A stretch of 64,000 bases of DNA from NCBI RefSeq assembly GCF_004135205.1, contig NZ_CP035490.1:2249501-2313500 (forward strand), read 5' to 3'. Positions 24,962-27,956 of this stretch are shown here, piece by piece. A program made the translations under genes and the position numbers. The notes beneath the pieces are model-generated. The model saw only the letters and a program-made list of their open reading frames with translations, searched no databases and was not told the origin of the DNA. Source of the stretch: Hahella sp. KA22 (GTDB lineage: Bacteria > Pseudomonadota > Gammaproteobacteria > Pseudomonadales > Oleiphilaceae). Within the stretch, counting starts at the first letter, position 1. Each line of letters begins with the position of its first letter.

Positions 24962-25672
24962 ATGATGACGCAGGAGCTGTTCAGAGAGGACGCATACGCA
25001 AAAGAGTGTGTCGCCAGGGTGGTAGCGATCAAGGAAAACGCAGTATTACTGAATAAGACAATATTCTATCCTCTGGGTGGTGGGCAGCCCGGCGATACGG
25101 GAGAGTTGGAAAGCCAGGATGCTCGGATCTGGAAAGTGACAGACTCCCGCAAAGACCCGGACGGCGAAGGAATCTTGCACATTCTGGACAGCTCAGAGGG
25201 CTTGAAGGAAGACATGGAACTGACGCTTCGCATCGATTGGGAGCGCCGCTATGCGCACATGCGGATGCACACTTGCCTGCACTTATTGTGTTCCCTGATA
25301 GACGCGCCTGTAACCGGAGGCAATATATCTGCGGACAAAGGTCGTCTGGACTTCTATCTGGATTACTCTCCCGACAAGGAAGACTTGGAGCGCCGAATTA
25401 ACGCATTGGTCTCTGCGGCTTATCCTGTCAGTTATCGTTGGATTACCGATGAAGAACTGGACGCTCAGCCAGAGCTGGTCCGAACACTGTCCGTGCAGCC
25501 GCCAAGGGGGGCGGGCCAGGTGAGGCTGGTGAACGTAGACGGCGTTGATTTACAGCCCTGCGGCGGCACTCATGTGAAGAACACCGCTGAAATTGGCCCT
25601 GTTGTGATAGGGAAAATCGAAAATAAAGGCAAGGGTAATCGTCGGATAAATCTGGTATTGGCGAGCGTGTGA
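24962..25672 (+). CDS. Alanyl-tRNA editing protein AlaX
   Basis: A 236-residue trans-editing hydrolase that deacylates mischarged Ser- or Gly-tRNA(Ala). The zinc ligands of the editing domain are in HTCLH and CGGTHVKNT. The glycine-rich YPLGGGQPGDTG near residue 35 belongs to the AlaX N-terminal domain, placing it with AlaX-M forms rather than the shortest ones. Start chosen at the first of two consecutive ATGs; GTG at 24956 is in frame but less likely. The WG-repeat gene starts three bases after its stop. Confidence 0.92.
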   Translation: MMTQELFREDAYAKECVARVVAIKENAVLLNKTIFYPLGGGQPGDTGELESQDARIWKVTDSRKDPDGEGILHILDSSEGLKEDMELTLRIDWERRYAHMRMHTCLHLLCSLIDAPVTGGNISADKGRLDFYLDYSPDKEDLERRINALVSAAYPVSYRWITDEELDAQPELVRTLSVQPPRGAGQVRLVNVDGVDLQPCGGTHVKNTAEIGPVVIGKIENKGKGNRRINLVLASV

Positions 25673-25674
25673 TC

Positions 25675-26643
25675 ATGTTGAAGAGGGTCTTGTCCTATAT
25701 CGGCCTGGCCGCCTTGTTGGCGACTAGCGTATGTTCTCAGGCATGGGCTGCGCCCTCTGTGGTGGATGTTTCCACGCTGCAATGCGAAGTCAAAGACGGC
25801 GCGCCTCGTTGTGACGACAAAATTCAGTTCGATATGAGGTATGAGCAAGAACTGCGTGAAGGTCGCTGCAGATATCGTTCCCTGGAGGGGCTGCCAGTTG
25901 GCGACCGTTGGTTTGATCGCTGCGTTGACGGTTTTATTGGCGCTTATGCGCAGGTATGTCTAGTAGGGCAAATGGGGCGCTTGGGGTGTGGTGCGATTAA
26001 CCATAGCGGCGAGATTGTTATTCCGCTGGTGTATGACCACATAGAAATTACTCCTCATAGTGCAATCGTCGCCGTCAACTACAACGGTAAATGGGGATTT
26101 TTTAACCTGGATGAAGATCGCCTGCTGCTGGCGCCTCAGTTCTCACGCATCACCAGTTTTAGCGAAGGCCTGGCCTATGTGGAGACGGAGAGCGAGGATA
26201 TCACTGAGCCTGGTTGGATCATTAATGAGCAAGGCTTACGTGTGGCTTCCGTACCGCGCAAGATTCAGGTTGCGGGTCGCTTTTCTGATGGGTTGGCTCC
26301 CGCTCGCTCGGATACATTGTGGGGGTATATCAACAATAAAGGCGAATGGGCCATATCACCTCAGTTTTATTATGCTGGAGAGTTTTCCTCTGGTTATGCC
26401 ACCGTCTTGGCGATAGACAAACCGCAGCAGTGGGCGATTATCGACGTATCTGGCGCTGGCGCCCTCTTTTTCGAAGGCGGCCAACATCGAGTTGGAGAGG
26501 TTGTCGGCGCTGCTGTGGCGGTGACCTTTGGTTGCGAGAGCGAGCCGGCGGTGGCGACCAGCGTCAGGTGCAAACGTATGTGTCTGGAGCTGAACAACCC
26601 TGAGCCGAAAGCCGCCTGTACAAAAGTCATTGAAACCCGCTGA
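25675..26643 (+). CDS. Exported WG-repeat protein
   Basis: A 322-residue secreted or periplasmic protein. A signal peptide (MLKRVLSYIGLAALLATSVC, probable cleavage after SQAWA) is clear. Two or more WG (KWG) beta repeats follow: KWGFFNLDEDRLLLAPQFSR and LWGYINNKGEWAISPQFYYA, with related segments before and after. It has several cysteines in the last third (CESEPAVATSVRCKRMC), suggesting disulfides. WG repeats are structural; function unknown. Nearly abuts alaX, so probably in the same transcript, which then ends before the small-RNA array. Confidence 0.85.
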   Translation: MLKRVLSYIGLAALLATSVCSQAWAAPSVVDVSTLQCEVKDGAPRCDDKIQFDMRYEQELREGRCRYRSLEGLPVGDRWFDRCVDGFIGAYAQVCLVGQMGRLGCGAINHSGEIVIPLVYDHIEITPHSAIVAVNYNGKWGFFNLDEDRLLLAPQFSRITSFSEGLAYVETESEDITEPGWIINEQGLRVASVPRKIQVAGRFSDGLAPARSDTLWGYINNKGEWAISPQFYYAGEFSSGYATVLAIDKPQQWAIIDVSGAGALFFEGGQHRVGEVVGAAVAVTFGCESEPAVATSVRCKRMCLELNNPEPKAACTKVIETR

Positions 26644-26660
26644 AGGGGTCTTTCTAGGCT

Positions 26661-26678
26661 TGTGAGATATTTCCTACA
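26661..26678. promoter_or_regulatory. GacA box (UAS) of small RNA copy 1
   Basis: TGTGAGATATTTCCTACA matches the GacA upstream activating sequence TGTAAG-N6-CTTACA at 10 of 12 conserved positions. It is centred about 65 bases before the predicted transcription start, as in rsmY/rsmZ promoters. A -10 box TAATAT lies at 26722-26727. Confidence 0.7.
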
Positions 26679-26733
26679 CGCAGAGCAGACATATAGTATT
26701 TTTTTCGCTTCTCAAGATTACTAATATTTAACC

Positions 26734-26865
26734 CGCAAGATGCACAGACGGACGTAAGGATGCGAGGAAAGGAAGCGACAAGGACGATGAACAGCCATAG
26801 GAATCGGCAAGGGAAGCGTTCAAATCTCAAGGCGCAGCAAGGAATGCTGCGCCTTCTTGCGTTTT
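26734..26865 (+). ncRNA. CsrB/RsmZ-type CsrA-sequestering small RNA, copy 1
   Basis: A predicted RNA of about 132 bases with eight GGA motifs, among them AAGGATG, AAGGAAG, CAAGGACG and AGGGAAG. It ends in an intrinsic terminator, GGCGCAGC/GCTGCGCC with the GGA-containing loop AAGGAAT, followed by TTCTTGCGTTTT. Dense GGA motifs, no coding potential and a GacA box are the hallmarks of CsrB/RsmY/RsmZ RNAs, which bind and titrate the translational regulator CsrA/RsmA. Ends are inferred from the -10 box and terminator. Diverged from copies 2 and 3 in sequence but alike in design. Confidence 0.75.
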
Positions 26866-26904
26866 AAGGACGCAATTGAGAAAAACGGCGTCGTCTTATG
26901 ATAC

Positions 26905-26922
26905 ATGGGCGAATATCTCACA
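26905..26922. promoter_or_regulatory. GacA-box-like element of small RNA copy 2
   Basis: ATGGGC-GAATAT-CTCACA keeps the right half-site (CTCACA is the exact complement of the left half of the copy-1 box) but not the left. It ends exactly 43 bases before the -10 box TAATAT (26966-26971), the same spacing as copy 1. Confidence 0.5.
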
Positions 26923-26977
26923 AGGCAAGCAGAGAAAGCTTATTTTGTGGCGCCTCATGAATCCGTAATATGTGAAT

Positions 26978-27113
26978 CGTAAGGAGACGAAAGCGAACAC
27001 CCAAGGATTGGGAAGCAAGGATGCAACAAGGATGATGTCTTCACCGCAGGAAGCGGTCAGGGAAAATAGGGAAATTCGAAAGGCGCGGCTGGGAGGCTGC
27101 GCCTTTTGTTTTT
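26978..27113 (+). ncRNA. CsrB/RsmZ-type small RNA, copy 2
   Basis: A predicted RNA of about 136 bases with nine GGA motifs, several displayed in loops of short hairpins: CCCA-AGGAT-TGGG (27000-27012), GCA-AGGA-TGC (27015-27024) and ACCGC-AGGAA-GCGGT (27043-27057). The terminator GGCGCGGC/GCTGCGCC has loop TGGGAG and a TTTTGTTTTT tail. This hairpin-displayed GGA arrangement is what CsrA binds with high affinity. About 95% identical to copy 3 over roughly 205 bases including the promoter, period 235 bases. Confidence 0.85.
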
Positions 27114-27139
27114 GGGGCGGAGATGTTTTTCCTTCGATC

Positions 27140-27157
27140 TTGGGCGAATATCTCACA
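27140..27157. promoter_or_regulatory. GacA-box-like element of small RNA copy 3
   Basis: TTGGGC-GAATAT-CTCACA, ending exactly 43 bases before the -10 box TATTAT (27201-27206). Same degenerate left half as in copy 2. Confidence 0.5.
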
Positions 27158-27212
27158 AGCCAAGCAGAGAAAGCTTATTTTGTGGCCCATCGAGAATCCG
27201 TATTATGTGAAT

Positions 27213-27348
27213 CGTAAGGAGACGAAAGCGAACACCCAAGGATTGGGAAGCAAGGATGCAACAAGGATGATGTCTTCACCGCAGGAAGCGGTCAGGGATT
27301 ATAGGGATATACGAAAGGCGCGGCTGGGAGGCTGCGCCTTTTGTCTTT
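27213..27348 (+). ncRNA. CsrB/RsmZ-type small RNA, copy 3
   Basis: The tandem duplicate of copy 2, with the same nine GGA motifs, the same loop-displayed hairpins and the same GGA-looped terminator (27317-27338, then TTTTGTCTTT). Differences from copy 2 fall outside the GGA motifs, for example in the A/T bases beside AGGGA and in the promoter spacer, which suggests selection on CsrA-binding sites. It ends 26 bases before the convergent membrane-protein gene. Confidence 0.85.
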
Positions 27349-27374
27349 CTGCGTTTTAATTGCGGCTATTGTCT

Positions 27375-27788
27375 TTAGGCTCCAACACTCCCTACTGCCT
27401 CGTTCTTACCAATTGCGGTCTGCTCCAGCAGCGCAAGTATCGTCACCGCTAGCGCGATCGCGACAATCAGAAACAAGCCAAGCCCCGAGAAGCTGCTGCT
27501 GAATACCGCAACCAACAGCACGCTGGCCAGCACCCAGGCCCAATCGAGATAAACAATCCACTTTGAAAACTTATCCTGCCAGGCGGGAGAGCGCGCAACG
27601 AGAAAAACATCCACCGCCCATATCGCCAGCCCTATACCTAATCCTATGTAAACCTCTGTCGCCAGTCCTCCTACCTTGGCCGCGAACCAGGATGGGAACA
27701 GTATCAGATCGATCGCCAGAAGCAGTGAAAGGGCTGCATTGACGTAAAGTGTTTTAGCCAGCAATTGGCGATTTTTTACTTGGGTCAT
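27375..27788 (-). CDS. Small four-helix membrane protein
   Basis: A 137-residue integral membrane protein with four hydrophobic segments (about 12-30, 42-60, 74-92 and 95-120). ATG 27788 is chosen because AGGAGAAGAGTT precedes it; the upstream in-frame extension to 27851 lacks support. Resembles unnamed DUF-type four-helix proteins; function unknown. It is divergent from the XRE regulator, which may control it, an inference from position only. Confidence 0.75.
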   Translation of the reverse strand: MTQVKNRQLLAKTLYVNAALSLLLAIDLILFPSWFAAKVGGLATEVYIGLGIGLAIWAVDVFLVARSPAWQDKFSKWIVYLDWAWVLASVLLVAVFSSSFSGLGLFLIVAIALAVTILALLEQTAIGKNEAVGSVGA

Positions 27789-27956
27789 AACTCTTCTCCT
27801 GATTGAAGTGTCTGCGGGTCTATTTTTGAAGCAGGGACTAACGCCAAACAATTACCTCTGAGGTAATGGCGGGTAGTTGCTTCTGGCGGGCATATTGGCC
27901 AAATTGAGGCGGGTGAAAGGGTGGCCTTAGAGAAATCAGTGTCGGGAGTCATAGTT

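Follow-up and report, generated by a model that had tools for sequence, protein, structure and literature searches.

The 64,000-nucleotide (nt) stretch of Hahella sp. KA22 DNA analyzed here (the window, whose positions serve as coordinates, unit starts being approximate) belongs to a genome (G000) that consists of a single contig of 6.96 Mb. The + strand of its intergenic region at 26644-27374, between a WG-repeat protein gene and an open reading frame (ORF) of 158 amino acids (aa), holds three tandem units, U1, U2 and U3, predicted to encode sponge RNAs for the regulator CsrA (Table 1). A first-pass annotation of the window had proposed three consecutive CsrB/RsmZ-type small RNA genes with 8-9 GGA motifs in about 135 bases each. 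The units were confirmed, each carrying a -10 box, a GGA array (8, 9 and 9 motifs, respectively) and a terminator-like hairpin at its end. That annotation began at position 26661, where the U1 box described below also starts. Comparison of U2 with U3, promoters included, revealed 95% identity across 208 nt at a spacing of 235, while U1 was diverged. The units contain no TCC, and the array is the GGA-richest 616-nt stretch on the + strand of the window.

Table 1. Features of the three-unit array and its flanks (window positions) and related RNA genes elsewhere in KA22 (genome positions)
Feature	Position	Strand	Remarks
WG-repeat protein gene, upstream flank	25669..26643	+	PF14903; homolog adjoins single unit in G004 and G006
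U1 GacA/VarA-like box TGTGAGATATTTCCTACA	26661..26678	+	Zero-mismatch match in box search
U1 -10 box TAATAT	26722..26727	+	43 nt after box half-site; pattern match
U1 predicted sponge RNA	26734..26863	+	About 130 nt, 8 GGA; RNA-model match; no Rfam Csr/Rsm match
U1 terminator hairpin, GGA in loop	26829..26855	+	U-tract interrupted
U2 17-bp GacA/VarA-like box TGGGCGAATATCTCACA	26906..26922	+	Spacer one base shorter; 15/17, P = 0.002 with one-base deletion; 10/18, P = 0.57 without
U2 -10 box TAATAT	26966..26971	+	Promoter-pattern match
U2 predicted sponge RNA	26978..27113	+	About 136 nt, 9 GGA; RNA-model match; RF00166 27.6 bits, sub-threshold
U2 terminator hairpin, GGA in loop	27077..27108	+	Terminator-like hairpin at unit end
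U3 17-bp GacA/VarA-like box	27141..27157	+	15/17 (P = 0.001) if one base may be missing, otherwise 11/18 (P = 0.19)
U3 -10 box TATTAT	27201..27206	+	Promoter-pattern match
U3 predicted sponge RNA, terminator included	27213..27348	+	About 136 nt, 9 GGA; RNA-model match; RF00166 26.9 bits, sub-threshold
158-aa ORF, downstream flank	27375..27851	-	No family match; homolog adjoins single unit in G004 and G006
U4	670211-670339 (genome)		R1/R2 match; 3.2 kb from U5
U5	673459-673587 (genome)		R1/R2 match
U6, tandem pair with U7	3248198-3248329 (genome)		R1/R2 match
U7, tandem pair with U6	3247882-3248013 (genome)		R1/R2 match
U8 candidate	1269099 (genome)		221 nt as cut, 15 GGA; R2 20.2 bits; longer GGA run behind box

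Related RNAs were searched for with a covariance model built from 15 RNA bodies (R1; U1-U4 of four genomes) and run on 151 genomes of the family, 16 of which gave a match at E ≤ 0.001. KA22, G001 and G005 had seven R1 matches each, G002 had six, G006 four, G004 three and G003 none. A wider model of 41 rows (R2) identified seven loci in KA22 at 90.2-115.8 bits, with the next best match at 20.9 bits, and two loci in G003. Over 293 genomes of the order, 53 had an R2 match at E ≤ 0.01, and none apart from the seven of KA22 scored above 36.5 bits. Three weak KA22 matches, at 20.9 bits or less, were inspected. Those at 5565028 and 897972 contained 1 and 3 GGA and were rejected as sponge RNAs; the one at 1269099 is the longer candidate U8, whose 15 GGA occupy the same places in all four genomes compared (8 of 221 columns variable, 0 of 45 GGA bases). 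Together U1-U8 hold 74 GGA, 59 of them in U1-U7 and 15 in U8. The RNA copy set for further analysis comprised 57 members, namely 56 of 83 matches plus U4 of G005; left out were two terminator-only matches (G102, G145) and 25 matches at ≤21.9 bits, many of them antisense. Of this set, 46 copies were listed, 41 were aligned (16 near-duplicate, weak or truncated rows being omitted) and 50 entered the tree, which left out 7.

Several further observations were made around these paralogs. The interval between U4 and U5 (L059:2429-5316, G000:C1) contains genes for a VIT/vWA protein and a sortase. The U6/U7 pair, which lies about 32 kb from gacA, adjoins a gene (L060:2904-4766, G000:C1) for a HisKA_3 sensor kinase whose N-terminus is of the PilJ type. 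Longer GGA-rich RNAs were seen in the distant genus genomes (L073, G006:C64:7038-7173; L134, G004:C1:437010; L129, G003:C151); a similar box precedes the longer GGA runs of G004 and G006, and in G003 it precedes one of two. An RNA of the family in G024 (L088:1489-1611) lacks the 5' half and is preceded by sequence that, by eye, resembles the end of another ORF, perhaps as the result of an insertion.

Analysis of the upstream regions, which lie outside the R1/R2 bodies, revealed a common promoter arrangement. The -10 boxes of U1, U2 and U3 all stand 43 nt past a TNTCNYACA half-site, and the pattern TNTCNYACA-N43-TANTAT occurs six times in KA22, always before one of U1, U2, U3, U4, U6 and U7, against none for the backward control. 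Across all seven genus genomes there are 32 matches, compared with 3 for the control, and 31 of the 32 precede GGA-rich RNAs, 30 of them R1/R2 matches and one (G004:C1:437010) identified by reading; the match at G003:C113:8332 has no GGA-rich RNA behind it and was rejected. The pattern was derived from these same promoters, so only its exclusiveness counts as evidence. A simple scan for sigma-70 promoters with both hexamers found none at the array (0.7 expected). The boxes were then scored as matches to the published VarA site, an 18-bp palindrome, with P values from 1000 dinucleotide shuffles. Scores of 15/18 were obtained for U1, U4 and U7 and 14/18 for U6 (each P ≤ 0.002); with one spacer base missing, U2 and U3 scored 15/17 and U5 14/17, such that all seven copies reached P ≤ 0.002 when the 17-bp form was allowed. 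The 17-bp boxes were retained in 7/7 U2/U3 copies across four genomes, at 14 or 15 of 17 positions. The U8 box scored 17/18 in KA22, 16/18 in G005 and G002, and 15/18 in G001. When a separate 18-bp consensus was used, 30 of the 46 copies listed had a box at P ≤ 0.010. Two other sites in KA22 lack a GGA run: a zero-mismatch box at 1253276, rejected as a further sponge gene, and the GacA/VarA-like palindrome TGTGAGAGATGTCTCACA (G000:C1:131195-131212; L162:1501-1518). The latter lies about 98 nt upstream of a DUF6316 gene of 62 aa, possibly a protein-coding gene under direct GacA control.

Conservation was assessed on the orthologs of U1-U7 from four genomes, except for U3, for which three were used. 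Variable bases made up 1/177 in GGA motifs, 33/747 in the rest of the RNA and 103/700 upstream, differences that gave P = 0.012 for GGA versus other RNA and P = 1e-11 for other RNA versus upstream, the sites not being independent. Across the 41 aligned rows, both sides had changed in 9 of the 11 pairs of the terminator helix, in which 96.2% of cells were paired, and all three helices taken together contained 99 double-change cells compared with 32.6 in shuffles and 8-25 when the helices were slid. The terminator loop carried GGA in 39 of 41 rows, the exceptions being the c copies of G004 and G006; in the array itself it did so in U1, U2 and U3, as the first-pass annotation had stated.

The number of units at this place varied within the genus. 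Three units were present in KA22, G001 and G005, two in G002 (the second with a U2-type body) and one in G004 and G006, where homologs of both neighbors of the KA22 array, the WG-repeat gene and the 158-aa ORF, flank it; no unit was found at the syntenic place in G003. With two or three units in 4/7 genus genomes, the proposed local amplification is supported. The U2/U3 duplication is probably older than the species compared, because the U2- and U3-specific 3' parts are common across species. The tree, whose long branches call for caution, did not settle the order within U2/U3, a result that partial gene conversion may have left.

KA22 encodes one CsrA, as do all seven genus genomes, and its residues 1-58 are near-identical to a solved CsrA homolog; csrA lies downstream of an aspartate kinase gene. 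GacA is encoded at 3215382-3216023, adjoining uvrC, and scores above the cut-off of NF007018 (NCBIfam). A BarA-like kinase at 5518407 scored 862.7 bits.

The RNAs were also examined for their folding and composition. Fold stability exceeded that of shuffles (z = -2.4 for U1, -3.2 for U2 and -4.3 for U3). Hairpins presenting GGA in the loops of CCCAAGGATTGGG and ACCGCAGGAAGCGGT, previously described for every unit, were recovered by folding in U2 and U3; U1 did not form them, and these inner hairpins are weak across the paralogs. GGA density compared with base-composition shuffles gave P = 0.030 (U1), 0.015 (U2) and 0.010 (U3), which by itself is modest evidence. The weight of the argument rests on the comparisons, that is, on conserved paralogs, boxes and covariation.

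A relaxed Rfam search placed U2 and U3 nearest to RF00166 (PrrB_RsmZ), the only Csr/Rsm family listed for them, at E = 3e-4 to 5e-4 over 1 kb, below the gathering score of 44. U1 and U4-U8 had no RF00166 match in the relaxed searches, and in G003 a relaxed search yielded CsrB at 20.1 bits. The covariance search suggested by the first-pass annotation (CsrB, RsmX, RsmY and RsmZ) returned sub-threshold RF00166 for U2/U3 and nothing at gathering score. The units are filed by function as CsrB/RsmZ-type and not as RF00166 members, because the gathering threshold was missed. They resemble the RsmZ/PrrB RNA of Pseudomonas (RF00166) in size, terminator and, in the predicted folds of U2 and U3, GGA stem-loops, but differ in carrying GGA in the terminator loop, where the RF00166 consensus has none.

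Taken together, these data indicate that the three units are very probably GacA-activated, untranslated CsrB/RsmZ-type sponge RNAs, tandemly amplified within Hahella and serving a single CsrA. The CsrB/RsmZ-type assignment is supported in silico by the GGA arrays, boxes and terminators and by a genome that encodes CsrA, GacA and a BarA-like kinase. From evidence at the sequence level (motifs, boxes, terminators, paralogy, conservation, covariation and the presence of CsrA, GacA and the kinase) we infer transcription of the RNAs, their control by GacA, CsrA binding and an effect of dosage. In the proposed mechanism, signals received by the BarA/GacS-like kinase would lead to phosphorylated GacA, which would bind the box that precedes every RNA by about 55 nt; transcription of each unit would stop at its own terminator, and the 8-9 GGA motifs of the RNA would bind CsrA dimers and thereby release CsrA-repressed mRNAs. 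The triple would have formed by tandem duplication in the Hahella lineage and would raise sponge dosage from one place, with the single CsrA served by the triple, the four other paralogs and the longer eighth candidate. No other cluster in this candidate set of eight, predicted to serve one CsrA, is as large as the triple, and the set goes beyond the three genes first noticed.

A number of results weigh against this interpretation. The array has no match in Rfam at gathering score, and U1 matches no Csr/Rsm family even in the relaxed search. The 17-bp boxes of U2, U3 and U5 require a deletion that was permitted post hoc, after inspection, and are missed by a search restricted to the 18-bp form; the best 18-bp match of U5 (13/18) lies at another place than its 17-bp box, and 16 of the 46 copies listed have no 18-bp box at P = 0.010. 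Of the two inner helices, one is paired in only 54.5% of cells and the other in only 62.0%, and the number of further pair types was not above shuffles (357/500). The BarA-like kinase falls under its curated cut-off of 890. A purine-rich composition comes close to accounting for both the density of GGA and its exposure in loops, which go only modestly beyond it. Other 130-nt stretches in the window also hold at least 8 GGA. GGA triplets in U1-U7 are mostly unpaired (mean 0.72, versus 0.44 for other bases), but their exposure is not beyond that of GAA (0.77), AAG (0.69) or AGG (0.68) in the same RNAs; GAG is at 0.51.

Several other explanations were considered. It is possible, if rather unlikely, that only U1 is fully under GacA control, and that U2 and U3 obey a different signal or are transcribed when polymerase runs past the U1 terminator, giving a long three-part sponge in addition to single RNAs. 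This is a variant of the interpretation above and is compatible with sponge function. It would account for the 10-11/18 scores of the U2 and U3 boxes when no deletion is allowed and for the interrupted U-tract of the U1 terminator, and there is a precedent for sibling csrB genes that differ in control, csrB1 of Vibrio tasmaniensis being reported as VarA-independent (PMC6262261). Each unit nevertheless has its own -10 box in the same 43-nt phase, and the 17-bp boxes of U2 and U3 are kept in every copy in four genomes. A different activator was considered in CRP, for which the site core is TGTGA-N6-TCACA. If the upstream palindrome were a CRP-type site, the RNAs would answer to carbon status and not to GacA. 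The core is matched at the box at 9/10 positions by U4 and at 8/10 by U1 and U6, but at only 6/10 by U2 and U3 and 7/10 by U7; the best match of U5 lies elsewhere, the half-sites of U8 are spaced 8 apart, and the VarA site is matched at 14-17/18 in U1, U4, U6, U7 and U8 and at 14-15/17 in U2, U3 and U5. We regard CRP control of the set as very unlikely, while CRP may have a part in the control of U4.

Two further explanations dispense with a sponge altogether. Chance clustering of GGA in a functionless purine-rich repeat would fit the density P values of 0.01-0.03 and the existence of equally dense stretches, but is highly improbable given the conservation of GGA, the covarying terminators, the boxes and the paralogs elsewhere in the genome. 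We give almost no credence to the idea that the repeats code for small proteins. ORFs of 81, 78 or 86 aa are indeed present in the window, and a 90-aa ORF with similar letters occurs in G005; the + strand ORFs vary, however, from 81 and 78 aa in KA22 and 90 aa in G005 to 56 aa in G001 and none of at least 40 aa in G002, and the terminators fall inside the frames. The ORF across U2 is not conserved, since its GTG start at 26972, kept in G005, reads GGG in G001 and G002.

The array was compared with further known systems. A close parallel is the tandem duplication of a GacA-controlled sponge RNA in Pseudomonas brassicacearum, P. fluorescens F113 and P. stutzeri, where rsmX-1 and rsmX-2 are 75% identical (81% in P. 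stutzeri), carry 6 GGA each in P. brassicacearum and have had the upstream activating sequences (UAS) of both copies compared (PMC7911923). There are two copies there, in contrast to three in KA22, two of them 95% identical and all with 8-9 GGA, plus a second tandem pair. P. syringae DC3000 likewise has a large paralogous set of seven Rsm RNAs (rsmX1-5, rsmY and rsmZ), with five RsmA proteins (PMC6715622); KA22 has one more candidate RNA and a single CsrA. In Vibrio tasmaniensis, csrB1-4 also arose by duplication and have VarA sites upstream, but they lie in different synteny groups, consistent with duplication then relocation (PMC6262261), whereas the Hahella copies are in tandem. Pf1-Pf3 of Pseudoalteromonas fuliginea, with 25, 21 and 9 GGA, are gammaproteobacterial Csr RNAs that were similarly detected via GGA, promoter and terminator, and Pf2 and Pf3 are each flanked by a different pair of genes (PMC11882849). 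The first-pass annotation had called tandem arrays unusual, a view that the published rsmX pair qualifies; a triple array is new relative to the literature found. Its remark that no Csr RNA was described in this lineage fits a title-level search on Hahella with RsmZ, CsrA and GacA, which found no publication on CsrB/RsmZ-type RNAs in Hahella (subscription journals were mostly outside the search, and an earlier prediction is possible).

GacA-controlled sponge RNAs were already known from earlier reports, including rsmX genes in tandem and seven Rsm RNAs in one Pseudomonas (PMC7911923, PMC6715622). New relative to the literature found are the triple array, a candidate set of eight RNAs facing one CsrA and an RNA family that scores under the Rfam threshold, and so large a sponge set for one CsrA looks unusual. 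A bolder proposal, which we regard as unlikely, is that eight genes with 74 GGA for a single CsrA exceed any set found in print and arose by repeated tandem duplication, and that the terminator hairpins double as CsrA sites, which would let CsrA attach to the terminator as it emerges and thereby adjust read-through within the array. Through an RNA family that is missed by Rfam gathering thresholds, the predicted sponges extend the Gac/Csr system to Hahella. They also offer a natural series for testing sponge copy number against CsrA titration, with the count at this locus ranging from one to three units and with from 2 candidates found in G003 up to 8 in KA22. A correlation between sponge number and the count of CsrA proteins has been reported (Moll et al., cited in PMC7911923); in Hahella, by comparison, many candidate sponges are paired with one CsrA.
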